Shown piece by piece: positions 3,485 through 19,949 of a stretch of DNA of 64,000 nucleotides. Numbering within the stretch: the stretch's first letter is position 1; the number at the start of each line of letters is the position of its first letter. The notes under the pieces were generated by a model that worked only from the letters and a program-made list of their open reading frames with translations, was not told where the DNA came from and made no database searches. Position numbers and translations under genes: made by a program. The DNA is taken from assembly GCA_018654255.1 (NCBI GenBank), contig JABILX010000009.1, positions 62,001-126,000 of the forward strand, in the 5' to 3' direction. Origin of the DNA: Candidatus Peregrinibacteria bacterium (GTDB lineage: Bacteria; Patescibacteriota; Gracilibacteria; UBA1369; LOWO2-01-FULL-3).

Positions 3485-3503
3485 AGCGAGCGCTGTGCTC
3501 GCT
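3485..3503. terminator. Hairpin at the convergent greA / membrane-protein boundary
   Basis: AGCGAGC (3485-3491) pairs with GCTCGCT (3497-3503) around a 5-nt loop, exactly at the junction of two convergent genes. There is no clear T-run, so terminator function is inferred from position only. Confidence 0.4.
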
Positions 3504-3912
3504 ACTTGTTAGGCAAGTATCTGTTCTTTGAATTGTCTTCACTTTTTACTGTTTTTCTTGCCTCGTAGTTATCTCTCTCTTTTGGATAAACCTTGAAGTA
3601 TTTGTAGGTTTGGAATCCTAAATAGGTGAGTAGTCCGATACTTGTTAGGTACATCCATATTCTCATCGAGAAATATGGGATTTCCTCGTACCTGAGGACT
3701 AGTAGGAAAATGAATCCTATTGCAAAATACAGAAGTCTATTTGGAGTTTTTTTGTAAAGTTTTTTGAATACGAAATCTTTGTTTCGAACCTTATTTTTGT
3801 AAATGTTTTTTAGTACGATTGAACCTAATACTAGTAAAACTATCAAAGCCATCATTTCATAATAATAACTGAATGCGTCACCTGGTACTGTGCCAAATAA
3901 ATACGATAACAT
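3502..3912 (-). CDS. Small hypothetical membrane protein (136 aa)
   Basis: No family recognised. Three hydrophobic segments are visible: about residues 20-38 (MMALIVLLVLGSIVL), 60-77 (LLYFAIGFIFLLVL) and 85-104 (MRIWMYLTSIGLLTYLGF). A basic, hydrophilic C-terminal tail follows. The loop between segments 1 and 2 is rich in Lys and Arg, suggesting it is cytoplasmic. It lies 15 bp downstream of the Lgt-like gene on the same strand and is probably the last gene of the pyrG-led set. Function unknown. Confidence 0.7.
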   Translation of the reverse strand: MLSYLFGTVPGDAFSYYYEMMALIVLLVLGSIVLKNIYKNKVRNKDFVFKKLYKKTPNRLLYFAIGFIFLLVLRYEEIPYFSMRIWMYLTSIGLLTYLGFQTYKYFKVYPKERDNYEARKTVKSEDNSKNRYLPNK

Positions 3913-3927
3913 TTTGAATAAGGTTAA

Positions 3928-4710
3928 TTATTTTTTTCGCGGTTCTTTTTTATAGTAAATAAAATAAAATGTCAAAGATAACAGGAAGACAACTGCAGAA
4001 ATAATCTGTGGTAGTCTAATTAATCCCAAAATCATCGTTACATCATCTCCTCTAGTGAATTCTTGTAGGAAGGAGAAGAAAGAGAAGGCTGCTATGGATA
4101 GAGTTGCTGTTTTACCGTTTTTTTCTAGAAAGGGGGTGTCTTTGAATGCTATTGCTGATGCTGTTATCAAGCTTGTGTAGAGCAAGATATAAATCTGACT
4201 TGGATGAATTGGGACTGTGTATTTTATTGAAGGACTTTCGAAATTAACACCCCATGGTAATTCGGTTTCAACCCCGTACCATTTGCCATCTAGAAATGCT
4301 CCAATTGCAGAAATTGCAAATCCTACCATGAAGGCTGGTATGAGTGAATCGAGCCATTTCAAGTAGTCTTGGTCGTTCTTTTTGCATAAGTAGTAAAGCA
4401 TTGCTAGTCCTGCTGCGACAGCTCCCCAGATTGAGAGTCCTTTGTCCCAAATTTTGAATATTTGTAGGAAGGTGTCTAGCGAGTATTCGTAGAAGAACAT
4501 TCTCCAATTAAATATGATTGCGAATATTCTTGCTCCGATTAACGATGTGACAAGTAGCCAGAGGGCATTTTCTGTTAAGAATTGTAGCTTGAGGCCGTTT
4601 TTTAATCCTAATTTGATGAATGTGTAGGTTCCAACGATCAAACCTATTGTTATGAAGAACCAGAGGGAATGTATTGTGAAATATTTTGTTTGTAGGATTA
4701 TTGGGAACAT
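3928..4710 (-). CDS. Lgt-like (prolipoprotein diacylglyceryl transferase family) protein with degenerate active site
   Basis: 260-residue polytopic membrane protein with the Lgt fold pattern: an N-terminal IHSLWFFI segment, GARIF at 59-63, KGLSIWGA at 90-97, IGAFLDGKWYG at 136-146, HPSQIY at 169-174 and QEFTR at 216-220. In true Lgt these positions read FHGG, RxGNFxNGE, HPTQLYE and EFFR. Here the essential His is Trp95, the signature Arg is Ala135, the Asn is Ala138 and the Glu is Lys143; only the Arg corresponding to the C-terminal essential one (R220) remains. The family is clear from length, topology and the HPSQIY motif, but activity is doubtful. It starts 3 bp after the GspF-N-like gene. 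A lipoprotein with a good lipobox occurs at 18555-19949, so a working Lgt is expected somewhere in the genome. Confidence 0.75.
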   Translation of the reverse strand: MFPIILQTKYFTIHSLWFFITIGLIVGTYTFIKLGLKNGLKLQFLTENALWLLVTSLIGARIFAIIFNWRMFFYEYSLDTFLQIFKIWDKGLSIWGAVAAGLAMLYYLCKKNDQDYLKWLDSLIPAFMVGFAISAIGAFLDGKWYGVETELPWGVNFESPSIKYTVPIHPSQIYILLYTSLITASAIAFKDTPFLEKNGKTATLSIAAFSFFSFLQEFTRGDDVTMILGLIRLPQIISAVVFLLSLTFYFIYYKKEPRKK

Positions 4711-4713
4711 ATT

Positions 4714-6159
4714 TTAGAAGTTAACTAATACGAAAATTATTAAAAATGCTGTTGATGGGAAAATGACTATTGAGGCGACTTTTATTTTCCTGAAGAAATT
4801 ATATTTGATTGTGAATCCTAAGTGTAGCAAGAATACGATTACAAGGACGTATTTGAATATTTGGGTGTGATAAAAATCCAAACTTTTTGGGAAAGAGCTT
4901 GGGTCTCCAAGACCGAAGTTTTTTGATGTTACGTAGAGTGAAACAAAATAATAGACCAAGTAGAAGGCTAGTAGCCAACCTGTGAATTCGGTTATTTCCT
5001 CTGTGATGCGTTCTAGGAAGTCATGTCTTAGTTTTTCTTTATCTTTTAGGCTTAAGTTTTTTTCTTTTTCTAATTTGATTCTTTGTTTCACTTCTTTGAG
5101 TTCTTTTTTTGCGTTTTTTCTGCGTTCCCAGATTGCTTTAATTGCTGTTAGTGTCTTCTCTTTGTACTGAGGTGTTGGTTCTCTTAGGTAAAGTTTTATG
5201 TATTCTAGGATTTGTATGTTGCATGTTTTGATCTGGCCTTTTAATAATTGGACTTCAGGTGATGTCTCAAAGAATTTTCTTACCTTGAGTAGAAATGAGT
5301 TTGCTAATCTGATTTGCAAAGGTACTCTTGTTGCTTTGGATATGTTTTTTTGTTGCCAGCTTTGGATGTTTTGGACGATGTCTTCTGATATTGATTTTGG
5401 TTTGCCTGTGTCATGTAGTCGACCGAGAAGGCCTTTGACTTTCAGGATTAGTTTTGCTCTTTTTTCTAAATATCCTTTCTTTTTCAAGACAATTTCTTGT
5501 TTTTGGATTTCTTTCAATAACTCTTCTGCGGTTTGTGTTATGTATTCGAAGTTTGTTGAGTGTTTGATTCGGAGAAGTTTATCGATGCGTTTGTCGATGT
5601 TTTTGCGGGCGTCTAGAGGAATGTCGTTTCCATATTCTTGAAGTGTTTCGTTTACTTGTTTGAGGATGAATTCAATTTTTGTTTTTGTGAAAAGTTCCTT
5701 TTTTCTTTGTTCTTGAGAACTTCTTGTTTCTTTGATTTTTTTTGTTTCTGTTTCTGACTCTAGCATCTTTTGGAGTTGTGTCACTCCTCTTGCTTTGATT
5801 CTGGTTTTCTCTTCTTCAGTTGCGTCTTTGTCCCAGATTGAAGTTACTGTGAGTTCATATTCTTTGGTTAGTCTTTTGAAACCTGAAAAATCATCGTCGG
5901 CTGCGATTGTTCCGACTATTTTTTGTCCTTGAGGATTTATGGCTTCAAACTCAAATTTCTTTTTTGGTGCTTTGGCTGGATCTAGAGTTTTTTGTGATTG
6001 AGGTTTCTCTGCATCTTCTGGCCCTGCTTCTTTTAGTTCTAGAATAGAAAAACCGAGGTTGTTTAGTTCGGTTCTAGCAGCTTTTTCATCAGATGCTTCA
6101 ATCGATCCAACAAGCTTCTTGGACTCTTTGTTGGTAACTGTATATTTAAAAATTGGCAT
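4714..6159 (-). CDS. Membrane protein with two tandem GspF/PilC N-terminal-like domains
   Basis: 481 residues. Residues 2-42 (start MPIFKYTV, then VGSIEASDEKAARTEL and FSILEL) and residues 68-108 (FEFEAINPQGQKIVGTI) are two copies of the small motif that opens type II secretion/type IV pilus platform proteins (GspF/PilC): K-Y-x(n)-G-x-I-E-A-x(n)-L-x(n)-G. The usual helical-bundle T2SSF repeats are not recognisable. Instead a long charged, coiled-coil-rich middle (about 115-390) leads to three C-terminal membrane segments (about 396-415, 437-456, 462-481). A role near the pilus or secretion platform is inferred from the N-terminal copies only; a prepilin peptidase occurs at 43.9-44.8 kb. It sits between pyrG and the Lgt-like gene. 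Confidence 0.6.
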   Translation of the reverse strand: MPIFKYTVTNKESKKLVGSIEASDEKAARTELNNLGFSILELKEAGPEDAEKPQSQKTLDPAKAPKKKFEFEAINPQGQKIVGTIAADDDFSGFKRLTKEYELTVTSIWDKDATEEEKTRIKARGVTQLQKMLESETETKKIKETRSSQEQRKKELFTKTKIEFILKQVNETLQEYGNDIPLDARKNIDKRIDKLLRIKHSTNFEYITQTAEELLKEIQKQEIVLKKKGYLEKRAKLILKVKGLLGRLHDTGKPKSISEDIVQNIQSWQQKNISKATRVPLQIRLANSFLLKVRKFFETSPEVQLLKGQIKTCNIQILEYIKLYLREPTPQYKEKTLTAIKAIWERRKNAKKELKEVKQRIKLEKEKNLSLKDKEKLRHDFLERITEEITEFTGWLLAFYLVYYFVSLYVTSKNFGLGDPSSFPKSLDFYHTQIFKYVLVIVFLLHLGFTIKYNFFRKIKVASIVIFPSTAFLIIFVLVNF

Positions 6160-6194: not shown

Positions 6195-7811
6195 TTATTT
6201 GTTTTTGATGGAAGCTTCAATAAAGCCTTTGAAAAGTGGGTGTGGTCTGTGAGGTCTAGATAGGAATTCAGGGTGAAATTGTGAGCCAATCATGAATGGG
6301 TGATTTTCGTTTTCTGCTATCTCTACTAACTTTGATTGTGGGTTTATTCCTGAGAAAACCATGCCTTCTTTCTCGAGAGCTGCTTTGAAATCGTTATTGA
6401 ATTCAAATCTGTGTCTGTGACGTTCGTGTATCAGATCTTTTTTGTATAGTTTGTGAGTTTTTGTGTTGCGTTTAAGTTTGCAGTCGTACAAGCCGAGTCT
6501 GAGAGTTCCTCCTTTGTCTCTTTTTTCAGATTGTCCAGGAAGGAAGTGGATTATGTATTTGCTTGGATCTATGTTGTGTTTTTCGTCGAATTCTTCTGAA
6601 GTGATTTTATTGTCTTTTAACATTGAGCGAGCGAATTCGATTGTCATTATTTGCATTCCGAGACATAGGCCTAAGTATGGAACTTTGTTTTCTCGTGCGT
6701 ATTTTGCTGCTGCTATTTTTCCTTCTATTCCTCTTGATCCAAATCCTCCTGGAATTAAGATTCCGTGTGCTGATTTGAGTTCTTTCCAGGTCTTCTCATT
6801 CTTTTTTTCTAGTTTTTCTGTGTTGATCCAAATTAGATCAAGTTCACGGTTTTGGTGATAACACGCGATTTTCAGTGATTCAATGACAGATAGGTATGCA
6901 TCGTCTAGTCCAGTATATTTTCCTGCTAGTGCTATGCGTAGTTTTGGCTTTTTGGCTTTGATTTTTTTGTTTAAGGCTTCCCAGTCTTTGAGGTCTGGTT
7001 TTATTTTTCCTAAGTTTAATTTGTCTGCGACTAATTCTGCTACGTTGTATTTTTGATATTCTAGAGGGACTTCATATATTGAGCTAACTGTTTCTGCTGG
7101 GATTACGTGTGATTCTGGGACATCACAAAAGAGAGCAATCTTTTGAAGATGCTCTTTCTTGATTGGATAATCTGCTCTTGGAAGGATAAAGTCTGGTAGG
7201 ATTCCGACTGATCTGAGTTCTCTTACTGATGCTTGGGTTGGTTTTGTTTTCAATTCTTTTGATCCTGCTAGATATGGGAGGAGAGTGAGATGTATGTATA
7301 GGGTATTTTCTTCTCCGAGATCATTTCTCAATTGGCGAATTGCTTCGAGGAAGGGAAGTCCTTCTATATCTCCGACTGTTCCTCCAATTTCGCACATCAT
7401 GATGTCGCAACCTGATTTTTCTGCTGCTTTGGTAACAGTGTCTTTGATTGCGTTTGTTATGTGTGGAATAATTTGGATTGTTTTTCCGAGGAATTTTCCT
7501 TTGCGTTCTTTTTCGAGGACTTCGCTGTAGATTTTTCCTGTTGAAACTGAAGAAAGTTTTGATAGGTGAGTGTCTATGAATCTTTCGTAGTGTCCTAAGT
7601 CCAAGTCTGTCTCCCCGCCATCATCTGTGACAAAAACCTCTCCATGTTGAAAGGGGCTCATTGTTCCGGGGTCGACGTTTAGGTAGGGATCAAGCTTTTG
7701 AGTGAAGACCTTAAATCCTGATGATTTCAGGAGAGCTCCTATTGAAGCTGAGGCTATTCCCTTACCAAGTGAACTACAAACTCCTCCGGTAACAAAGATG
7801 TATTTACACAA
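6195..7811 (-). CDS. pyrG: CTP synthase
   Basis: Converts UTP to CTP with ATP and glutamine, the last step of pyrimidine nucleotide synthesis. The 538-residue length is normal. The N-terminal synthetase domain shows the P-loop-like FVTGGVCSSLGKG and VDPGTMSPFQHGEVFV with the Mg/ATP region TDDGGETDLDLGHYERF. The C-terminal class I glutamine amidotransferase domain has the nucleophile in GLCLGMQ and the HPEF His/Glu pair near the end. The start is TTG at 7811 (an in-frame TAA lies two codons upstream and no ATG fits), preceded by its own promoter at 7839-7867. Three membrane-protein genes follow on the same strand. Confidence 0.97.
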   Translation of the reverse strand: MCKYIFVTGGVCSSLGKGIASASIGALLKSSGFKVFTQKLDPYLNVDPGTMSPFQHGEVFVTDDGGETDLDLGHYERFIDTHLSKLSSVSTGKIYSEVLEKERKGKFLGKTIQIIPHITNAIKDTVTKAAEKSGCDIMMCEIGGTVGDIEGLPFLEAIRQLRNDLGEENTLYIHLTLLPYLAGSKELKTKPTQASVRELRSVGILPDFILPRADYPIKKEHLQKIALFCDVPESHVIPAETVSSIYEVPLEYQKYNVAELVADKLNLGKIKPDLKDWEALNKKIKAKKPKLRIALAGKYTGLDDAYLSVIESLKIACYHQNRELDLIWINTEKLEKKNEKTWKELKSAHGILIPGGFGSRGIEGKIAAAKYARENKVPYLGLCLGMQIMTIEFARSMLKDNKITSEEFDEKHNIDPSKYIIHFLPGQSEKRDKGGTLRLGLYDCKLKRNTKTHKLYKKDLIHERHRHRFEFNNDFKAALEKEGMVFSGINPQSKLVEIAENENHPFMIGSQFHPEFLSRPHRPHPLFKGFIEASIKNK

Positions 7812-18400: not shown

Positions 18401-18558
18401 GGCAGAACTGATGAAACCATTACCATTGGAAATTCTACTTCAGGAAAAGATTCTTTTGGGATTGAGATTGCAGAAAATACTCCTGTTATGATTATTCCTG
18501 CGATAATTACCCAGGCTACTACTCTTCTTTTTATAAAGAACGTCCAAGCGTTATTCAT
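15457..18558 (-). CDS. RND-family efflux transporter, AcrB/MexB-like inner-membrane pump
   Basis: Proton-driven efflux pump of the HAE/AcrB-AcrD-AcrF family, 1033 residues with the usual two halves: TM1 (RRVVAWVIIAGIIITGVFSA), a large periplasmic loop, TM2-6, TM7, a second loop and TM8-12. Typical motifs are FPEVEFPMVMV, PGATPSDTEDLLTKPLE and a TM4 motif GLLVDTAIVVMEG near residue 400. In AcrB this reads VDDAIVV, so the second proton-relay Asp is Thr here. It overlaps the adaptor gene by 4 bp (ATGA), so they are translationally coupled. No outer-membrane channel gene is nearby. Substrate unknown; drugs, lipids or surface components are all possible. Confidence 0.93.
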   Translation of the reverse strand: MNNAWTFFIKRRVVAWVIIAGIIITGVFSAISIPKESFPEVEFPMVMVSSVLPGATPSDTEDLLTKPLEKEIAPISGISVLQSTSSFSFSTVFVEFEADQDVDEAIDKVKEAVDRAKTKLPDEATDPQIIKFDLSEISVITYSLISDTAVIDLSEIAEEVQAELEQVSGISRVSISGDLKKEVHVIVNQSKLENAGLTITDISNAIKFGNLNLPAGAIEIDKSAYSLRFENEITNPQELGEIIIGSNLQLKDLARIETGTTSKQTLSRLSNQGDEPKNAVSLTVVKKKGGNTIKIVEALDAKLEELKANRTIPEGTQVLVTNDNAQFIKRDLGTLTQNGITTIFIIIGILFLAIGLREGIIAGMAIPLTFLISFSILYFKGETLNGLTLFSLVISLGLLVDTAIVVMEGIYEGINEGLNRKDAAIKSIETFRWPLIAGTATTVFAFFPMLLVGGIMGEYLKTMPITISGTLIGSLFVSLFLIPAIATKFLRKNNAGQKKALIAPIVNFMKNIQKNYLTKLLYSRAKRFVLMFTILIAFVASMALPMTGALSTEMFTEFDADYFIIDIELQPGTILEETDKYVKQVEDYLREQDEVINFVSIVGSAQTQALTDMGEMNSVNMSSNIANITVNLSPADQREIASYEIADPIREELKVLIPEPEISVRELKDGPPTDAAIAVKISGADMEILKELATKVETLVNNTEGTTEVKNSLEKGLNEFVFNLDQNKLAFHGLAEAQVVMVIRGAIQGEDAGELAINEEDVDIVVKYDDNNLDLTELQSIQIPSPRGHMVSLNQLGTYSLGESLSNIVREDQERMVKVLGEVKPGFNAVVITQEITEKIEDIEVPSGYTVSFGGDYQQVQQSFNELFMAMIVGILLIALTLVLQFNSFKQCFIILFTLPLALIGVFPGLMLIGMNLSFSAFIGVVALVGIVVNDAIVLISQINRNRSKGELSFEDSIIDAAYHRFQPVLLTTITTIFGILPVALIDDQWGGVGYSIIFGLLAATVLTLLVIPVMYYTLERKKAMKETTTINQ

Positions 18559-19949
18559 GATCTAGGTGATTTAGCTGATCTTTTTACTTTGTAGATTACA
18601 GCGTCTCCTTCTCGGAGAAAGACTGTTGATAATGCTACTTTTGTTCCAAAATTCACTCCTTCTAATATTTCTACATATTGTCCAATTATTTGTCCGATTT
18701 GTACTTCTATTCTTTCAATTGTTTTATCAGATGAAACTGTGTTTATGAAGTATTGTTCATCTTCTATGATTATGCTGTTTAGTGGGATCAGTGTCGCTAA
18801 GTTTTGTAAATTTGGGGTGAATGTAATTTCTACTATTTCACCTGAATAAAGGTTCTTTTTGTCGCTTAGACTAATCTCTACTTCGGCCTTTCCGTTTTGG
18901 GATAGGGTAGGGCTGATGTAGTTGATTAGACCTGTTGTTGAGCTTGTTGAAGTTGTGATTGATACGAGTGATCCTTCGTTTACCATGGCTGTTTCTTCTG
19001 GTGCAAGATATGTTGTTACTTTTAATTCTTGAATATTTTCGATTGTGAGTAGGATTTGTCCTGGGCTTGCGAATGATCCTACTTCTGTTTGAATGTTTGT
19101 TACTGTTCCTGAGATTGGAGCTTTAACGTTTCTAGCTTGTTGTTGAAGACGAGCTAGATCTGCTCCTGTTTCTGCTTGTAGGATTGTAGAATCTATTTGT
19201 ATGAATTGTAGGGAATACTGTGTTTGAACAGTCTCTACACTGTTTATACTTGCTTCTAGTTGAGCTTTTGCCATCGAGATTCCGTATATCATTTGATCCA
19301 TCTGTGCTTCGTGGCCGATTTCTAGTTGTTCAAGTTGAGATTCTGCTTGTTCTAGGGCTGTTTCTACTTCTATGTATGATGGATTGTCGTCGTTGAGGTC
19401 GTCTAGTGTATCCTCTAGGTCGTCAATAGCGTCTTCCAACAGGTCTGTTTGTTCGTCTGCAATGTCTTCTGCGTGTTCTTTTGAAGTGATTGCGTTTTGG
19501 ACTCCTTCTAGTGCTGTATAGTAGCCAATTAGCGCTTGGTCGATGCTTTTTTGAGCCGCGTAATCTGTTTTGAAACGCGTGTCTTCAAGTTTTTCAAGTC
19601 CTTCTAATGCAGATTTGTAATTTAGAGCTGCTGAATCTGTTGATAGGCTTTTCCCAAGAGTTATCAGGGTTTGGTTTTCGCTTACCTTGTCTCCTACTTC
19701 TACTTTTATATCAGTGACTGTTCCTGATGTTTGTGGAATTACAAAGCTTGTTGAACCTGATTGAAGTTGTCCGTTTTTGGTGAAAGATAGAGTGGTTGAG
19801 TTCTGTCCAACCGTGAAAATCTCAATTCTTTTTGCTTGTGGTTCTTGGTTTTCTTCTATTGTTTCAGGCTCTGCTCCGCATGCTGTTAATAGGAGTAGGG
19901 TCGTCAGGGAAAGGCATGCAAAGTGCGTGAATTGTTTGCGAATATTCAT
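18555..19949 (-). CDS. RND periplasmic adaptor (HlyD/membrane-fusion family) lipoprotein
   Basis: Partner of the RND pump. 464 residues. A lipoprotein signal peptide ends in LLTAC with the lipidation Cys at 24. The biotinyl-lipoyl-like half-motifs VTDIKVEVGDKVSENQTLITLG and VKAPISGTVTNIQTEVGSF flank a long coiled-coil hairpin (about 140-260). Beta-barrel and membrane-proximal parts follow (LKVTTYLAPEETAMV and so on). It ends with TGA overlapping the pump start, direct evidence that UGA is a stop in this genome. It is transcribed from the promoter at 19989-20016. Lipidation implies a working Lgt elsewhere. Confidence 0.92.
   Translation of the reverse strand: MNIRKQFTHFACLSLTTLLLLTACGAEPETIEENQEPQAKRIEIFTVGQNSTTLSFTKNGQLQSGSTSFVIPQTSGTVTDIKVEVGDKVSENQTLITLGKSLSTDSAALNYKSALEGLEKLEDTRFKTDYAAQKSIDQALIGYYTALEGVQNAITSKEHAEDIADEQTDLLEDAIDDLEDTLDDLNDDNPSYIEVETALEQAESQLEQLEIGHEAQMDQMIYGISMAKAQLEASINSVETVQTQYSLQFIQIDSTILQAETGADLARLQQQARNVKAPISGTVTNIQTEVGSFASPGQILLTIENIQELKVTTYLAPEETAMVNEGSLVSITTSTSSTTGLINYISPTLSQNGKAEVEISLSDKKNLYSGEIVEITFTPNLQNLATLIPLNSIIIEDEQYFINTVSSDKTIERIEVQIGQIIGQYVEILEGVNFGTKVALSTVFLREGDAVIYKVKRSAKSPRS

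Follow-up and report, generated by a model that had tools for sequence, protein, structure and literature searches.

A conserved Lgt-fold paralogue without the catalytic residues of prolipoprotein diacylglyceryl transferase in one class of Patescibacteria

The gene at 3928–4710 encodes an Lgt-fold protein from which the catalytic residues are lost. The name LgtL is given here to this divergent Lgt copy and to its orthologues. The orthologues are of single origin and under purifying selection, a separate canonical Lgt is encoded in the same genome, and lgtL stands in a fixed pairing with the gene of GspFN in the host's family and order. Judged by its residues, LgtL is very probably incapable of the known reaction by the known mechanism. 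More probably than not it is a pseudo-Lgt that now forms a subunit together with GspFN, for lipid binding or as a scaffold. Descriptions of Lgt itself present it as conserved throughout the bacteria, and it is a proposed antibiotic target. The window is the whole analysed stretch of DNA, 64,000 nucleotides in length. It contains the following locus.

3928..4710, minus strand: lgtL, encoding LgtL, Lgt-fold paralogue without catalytic residues, 260 aa.
4714..6159, minus strand: GspFN, 481 aa; it comprises two modules like the N-terminus of GspF/PilC, a long coiled coil and transmembrane helices at the C-terminus.
3502..3912, minus strand: TM140, a membrane protein of 136 aa encoded immediately after lgtL, with a basic C-terminal tail of the YLPNK type; recognised by family alignment.
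6195..7811, minus strand: pyrG (CTP synthase), by PyrG/CTP synthase models; upstream neighbour in 24 of 28 family loci.

LgtL belongs to the Lgt family at the level of fold. In a Pfam search it matches PF01790 over the whole domain (profile positions 1–239 of 240) with 130.8 bits against a cut-off of 24.9. It scores under the cut-off of every NCBIfam Lgt model that it matches: 70.8 against 118.9 bits for TIGR00544, and 93 against 334 and 79.5 against 636 bits for the best-matching equivalogs. The AlphaFold2 model (pLDDT 83, pTM 0.79) aligns with E. coli Lgt 5azb over 241 residues with Z 17.2 and rmsd 3.9; TM is 0.70/0.65. Since the next chain reaches only Z 6.3, the modelled fold is that of Lgt, with no other part of the chain supplying the missing residues in register. 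The overall topology, HPSQIY (169–174) and R220 (E. coli R246), which the initial annotation listed as remaining, are all in place. That annotation would have fallen had a His, Arg or Glu reached the active site from other positions; none is seen in register in the profile and structure alignments, which compare positions and not superposed side chains. A single-sequence scan of the genome contigs for P0001 gave 42 pattern matches, of which none was confirmed.

Alignment with E. coli K-12 Lgt places W95 on H103, A135 on R143, A138 on N146 and K143 on E151. The same four replacements had been named initially, and they recur in an independent profile-profile alignment (99.8%) of 26 orthologues against 18 canonical Lgts, in which IGAFLDGKWYG stands on the signature motif LGNFINGELWG. 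The 26 orthologues are the 28 found minus two truncated ones (L053 and L058). The loss had been understated: Y26 (L16), N149 (D141), E202 (I175), Y235 (F209) and R239 (S213) are gone too. Six residues, Y26, H103, R143, N146, G154 and R239, are given in PMC13251419 as absolutely required in E. coli Lgt; of these the window protein keeps one, G154. Passages of PMC4728403 report that R143A/E/K, Y26A/F/Q, E151A/Q and H103 substitutions abolished complementation, and that the C3-O bond of the donor is activated in a pocket formed by R143 and R239. According to passages of PMC13251419, E151A Lgt still supported growth of E. coli and some Lgts carry Y, W or F at position H103. The four residues had initially been called invariant; for the His this does not hold, since genuine Lgts vary at H103, and W95 taken by itself would therefore be no proof. 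Loss of H103 was rejected as proof of inactivity for that reason.

The pattern extends to the whole clade. The counts are from a de-duplicated set of 75 distinct LgtL rows, 73 of them scorable at all six required positions. R143, H103 and E151 occur in 0 of the 73 rows, which excludes chance and also the sequencing error that the initial annotation had named as a possible refutation. One of the six required residues is kept in 39 rows, two in 31 and three in 3; Y26 is present in 5, N146 in 3 and R239 in 29 of the 73. Canonical Lgt rows have all six in 26 of 26. Kept in LgtL are R73 (72/73), D129 (72/73), HPxQxY (71/73) and R246 (71/73), and the residues of the periplasmic head are conserved. 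Pocket columns were fixed in advance as the hydrogen-bond-network residues named in the crystal-structure paper, with Y26 and H103 added; 12 of 14 columns were usable. They stand out by low variability in canonical and Cys-type Lgts but not in LgtL. Their median entropy is 0.00 against 1.50 elsewhere in canonical Lgts (p 1.1e-6), 0.66 against 2.28 in Cys-type Lgts (p 5.6e-6) and 2.31 against 2.25 in LgtL (p 0.74), all p values being descriptive because the rows are related by descent.

The pocket of LgtL is not simply decaying, since R239 (29/73) and, in order-level rows, E243 (38/55) are partly conserved, as are residues of its own. Order-level rows have W103 in 38 of 55, D/E149 in 44 of 55 and R239 in 30 of 55; another LgtL family has R26 in 11 of 13, W143 in 13 of 13 and Y202 in 13 of 13. 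Different LgtL subclades have rewritten the pocket in different ways. Such a pattern would be expected if the original chemistry is no longer selected, yet the cavity matters locally. Ka/Ks is 0.05–0.11 for close LgtL pairs with usable Ks, like that of canonical Lgt in its closest pairs. Thirty-two columns are invariant among the 26 orthologues. Decay of a duplicate would begin with loss of catalytic residues, but these values, and open frames in orthologues across the class, reduce a decaying copy, a pseudogene or a sequencing error to a negligible probability; the last two are refuted by the orthologues and Ka/Ks.

The genome of the window is 1.24 Mb in size and 96% complete. A second PF01790 protein, encoded at C8:24737-25507 and scoring 195 bits, retains the six required residues in full, and one LspA is found. 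The option of a second, canonical Lgt raised in the initial annotation is thereby borne out, and LgtL as the only Lgt of the host is rejected. The lipoprotein cited there alongside LgtL is real.

18555..19949, minus strand: predicted lipoprotein, LLTAC lipobox in the translation; upstream of an RND-type transporter ORF (judged by eye).

Its presence is no paradox, because the same genome has LspA and a canonical Lgt with the six residues. In the window segment 15457-19949 (minus strand) the lipoprotein overlaps the start of the large RND-type transporter ORF by four bases. By eye, it resembles a membrane-fusion adaptor with a lipid anchor, here in a Patescibacterium.

PF01790 proteins occur in 30 of 30 genomes searched from the host's family, most with one strong and one weak copy. 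Four genomes of one family (f5; G204, G318, G417 and G420) have three PF01790 matches each. The order was surveyed in 89 genomes, 62 of them near-complete, LgtL being called at an orthologue-profile score of at least 160 bits and the presence of PF01790 proteins counted by hand. LgtL is present in 60 of the 62 near-complete genomes, a further PF01790 protein in 58, the two together in 56 and LspA, from a tally, in 61. LgtL was not found with the orthologue profile in two near-complete genomes of the order (G004, G418). Canonical Lgt was not found in four near-complete genomes with LgtL and LspA (G015, G056, G434, G443); the canonical profile at E<=10 on these and on G414 found LgtL alone and no canonical fragment. 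The gap in G015 is attributable to its assembly, as the region syntenic to canonical lgt stops at a contig end. Recovery of catalytic residues by LgtL where canonical Lgt is missing was considered and rejected: the LgtL rows of the four genomes (L059, L188, L187, L186) are without R143.

LgtL is monophyletic. In a tree of 88 chosen rows, with the bootstrap not settled, the 50 LgtL rows, drawn from several families of the class, all fall into one clade (support 100/99), and the canonical Peregrinibacterial Lgts form a separate one (100/99). LgtL is placed beside Cys-type Lgts at a weak fork. It occurs also in other families of the class (Peregrinibacteria/Gracilibacteria-type Patescibacteria). 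Of the next-best matches of the phylum outside the class, the four examined (L211-L214) all have R143 and R239. Two contigs titled as Nitrospirota/Nitrospirae MAGs (L065, L105) carry the syntenic block of the family; the titles look misassigned.

GspFN ends 3 bases before lgtL. In the family loci it lies directly upstream of lgtL in 25 of 28, lgtL being the first gene listed in the other 3, and pyrG, greA, rpoD and dnaG surround GspFN-lgtL-TM140. GspFN adjoins lgtL in 33 of 33 order-level rows (27 distinct LgtL sequences). pyrG is the upstream neighbour in the family and order, but is absent in some LgtL-bearing clades; the adjacency of GspFN and lgtL persists in L106, L116, L119, L210 and L262 without pyrG or greA. 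By the models used, 15 of 16 class-level rows (L195-L210) have no GspFN neighbour, and in 14 of these (L196-L209) TM140 is downstream of lgtL. GspFN is found in 24 of 379 genomes of the phylum, 23 of them in the class of LgtL; in the 24th the match has 28 bits and covers the first 46 positions.

The likeness of GspFN to GspF is limited to its first ~50 residues; the NCBIfam GspF match covers residues 4–51 (E 1e-5, far below cut-off). The T2SSF membrane domains of GspF/PilC platform proteins are not found in it, and the whole protein has no Pfam match. The coiled coil and transmembrane helices were read from the sequence and from an AlphaFold2 model with pTM 0.30. A Foldseek search with this model returned nothing at E<=0.001; its top match, a weak one, is the RNA polymerase epsilon subunit YkzG (47 columns, E 0.21), on one small N-terminal module.

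TM140 follows lgtL in 28 of 28 family loci. Across the phylum, 96 of 379 genomes have a relative of it, one in each, and since 65 of these genomes are outside the class, the pairing with LgtL is not exclusive. The relatives often stand beside genes that by eye resemble rpsA, gyrA, nusA, yraN or a methyltransferase. This phylum-wide occurrence beside rpsA/gyrA/nusA-like genes weakens the case for TM140 as a partner specific to LgtL. A profile search recovered 26 records of a PLDc_N-like 2-TM protein, which in some of them carries a double zinc ribbon; among these records are 15 of the 16 class-level LgtL loci and 4 of the 4 further ones (group G). Outside the host's family, a 2-TM protein with RD-x-x-x-R and an IRPxxT-type motif directly follows lgtL (L195 4082-4600, L119 5724-6185, L197 and others). 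In some clades it is fused to the double zinc ribbon.

The preferred reading takes LgtL for an ancient paralogue of prolipoprotein diacylglyceryl transferase in which the seven-TM Lgt fold was retained with its structural and periplasmic-head residues and the donor-activating site was lost. Lipoproteins would be lipidated by the canonical copy and not by LgtL. LgtL would form a lipid-binding or purely structural membrane subunit in complex with the GspFN encoded upstream, its Lgt body and periplasmic head serving for lipid binding or scaffolding. The TM140 encoded downstream, and in related clades the 2-TM protein, sometimes with zinc ribbons, may be accessory parts. The GspF-like modules of GspFN hint at a possible contact with a cytoplasmic assembly factor. 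Among the options named initially, a repurposed lipid-binding protein is the one that best fits the conservation pattern and the gene context. Against repurposing as a subunit stand the partial retention of R239, E243, W103 and D/E149, the four genomes with LgtL and LspA in which canonical Lgt was not detected, the class-level rows without a GspFN neighbour, and the non-exclusive pairing with TM140. A wider proposal is tentative and has somewhat less than an even chance: a membrane machine so far undescribed, belonging to one Patescibacteria class, would be built around LgtL and GspFN, and in it the Lgt fold would serve as a lipid-gripping structural subunit or carry a new lipid chemistry that was rebuilt differently from subclade to subclade.

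The divergent enzyme also offered by the initial annotation is the main rival, possible but unlikely. LgtL would in that case be an active lipid transferase with a rebuilt pocket, acting on another lipid donor or protein acceptor, for example a substrate delivered via GspFN. The clade-specific conservation of pocket residues (W103, D/E149 and R239 in the order; R26, W143 and Y202 in another family), the strong purifying selection and the four genomes apparently with LgtL and LspA and without canonical Lgt speak for such activity, as does the suggestion in PMC13251419 that Lgts of other phyla without R143/R239 may use a different substrate or mechanism. However, the pocket residues vary between subclades, so that no one chemistry fits all LgtL; no catalytic base or replacement of R143 is conserved across the clade; and R143A/E/K each abolished activity of E. 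coli Lgt in the results given in PMC4728403. Less probable again, with a small chance, is that LgtL acts in the lipoprotein pathway as a pseudoenzyme with a regulatory or chaperone role, for example by binding prolipoproteins or phosphatidylglycerol and passing them on to canonical Lgt. In favour of this, canonical Lgt and LspA accompany LgtL in almost every near-complete genome of the order, and the conserved periplasmic head would suit such a function. The co-occurrence carries little information because Lgt and LspA are near-universal here, and in the family loci studied neither canonical lgt nor lspA is linked to lgtL, whose constant neighbour is GspFN.

Pfam annotation labels LgtL as Lgt; PF01790 matches in Patescibacteria should not be counted as Lgt. 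A class-wide, operon-linked clade of putative pseudo-Lgts in bacteria with tiny genomes provides a natural experiment that separates structural from catalytic residues of Lgt. The clade may also point to a membrane complex that has been retained in organisms from which most biosynthesis is gone.

Compared with E. coli Lgt (PDB 5azb/5azc), LgtL has the same whole fold by its model, the same topology, and R73, D129, G145, G154, R246 and HPxQxY; Y26, H103, R143, N146, N149, E151, Y235 and R239 are replaced in the window protein. Cys-type Lgts of Planctomycetota, Myxococcota, Bdellovibrionota and others are characterized by N146C, E151C and a PIHP motif. They are the nearest other group in the tree, at the weak fork, and have in common with LgtL the I of PIHPxQ, a position that is R in the canonical copies of E. 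coli and Peregrinibacteria. Unlike LgtL, they keep R143 (36/36), R239 (34/36) and Y26 (35/36). In extra Lgt copies from two Myxococcota genomes both arginines are present in every row that spans the site. A search of open-licence PMC papers recognised no report of an Lgt paralogue, LgtL clade or module in Peregrinibacteria/Patescibacteria, and the main text of PMC13251419 (2026) makes no mention of CPR, Candidate Phyla or Patescibacteria. Passages of the latter report Lgts without R143/R239 in other phyla, in which the donor-binding arginines are lost as in LgtL, a likeness by description only. They also report M. smegmatis MSMEG_5408, a second, altered Lgt beside a major copy, as with LgtL; for it these passages give only Y26H and N146C, presume low activity and mention no loss of R143/R239. 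Altered second Lgts and Lgts without R143/R239 are thus already in print for other phyla, and LgtL is a further variant.
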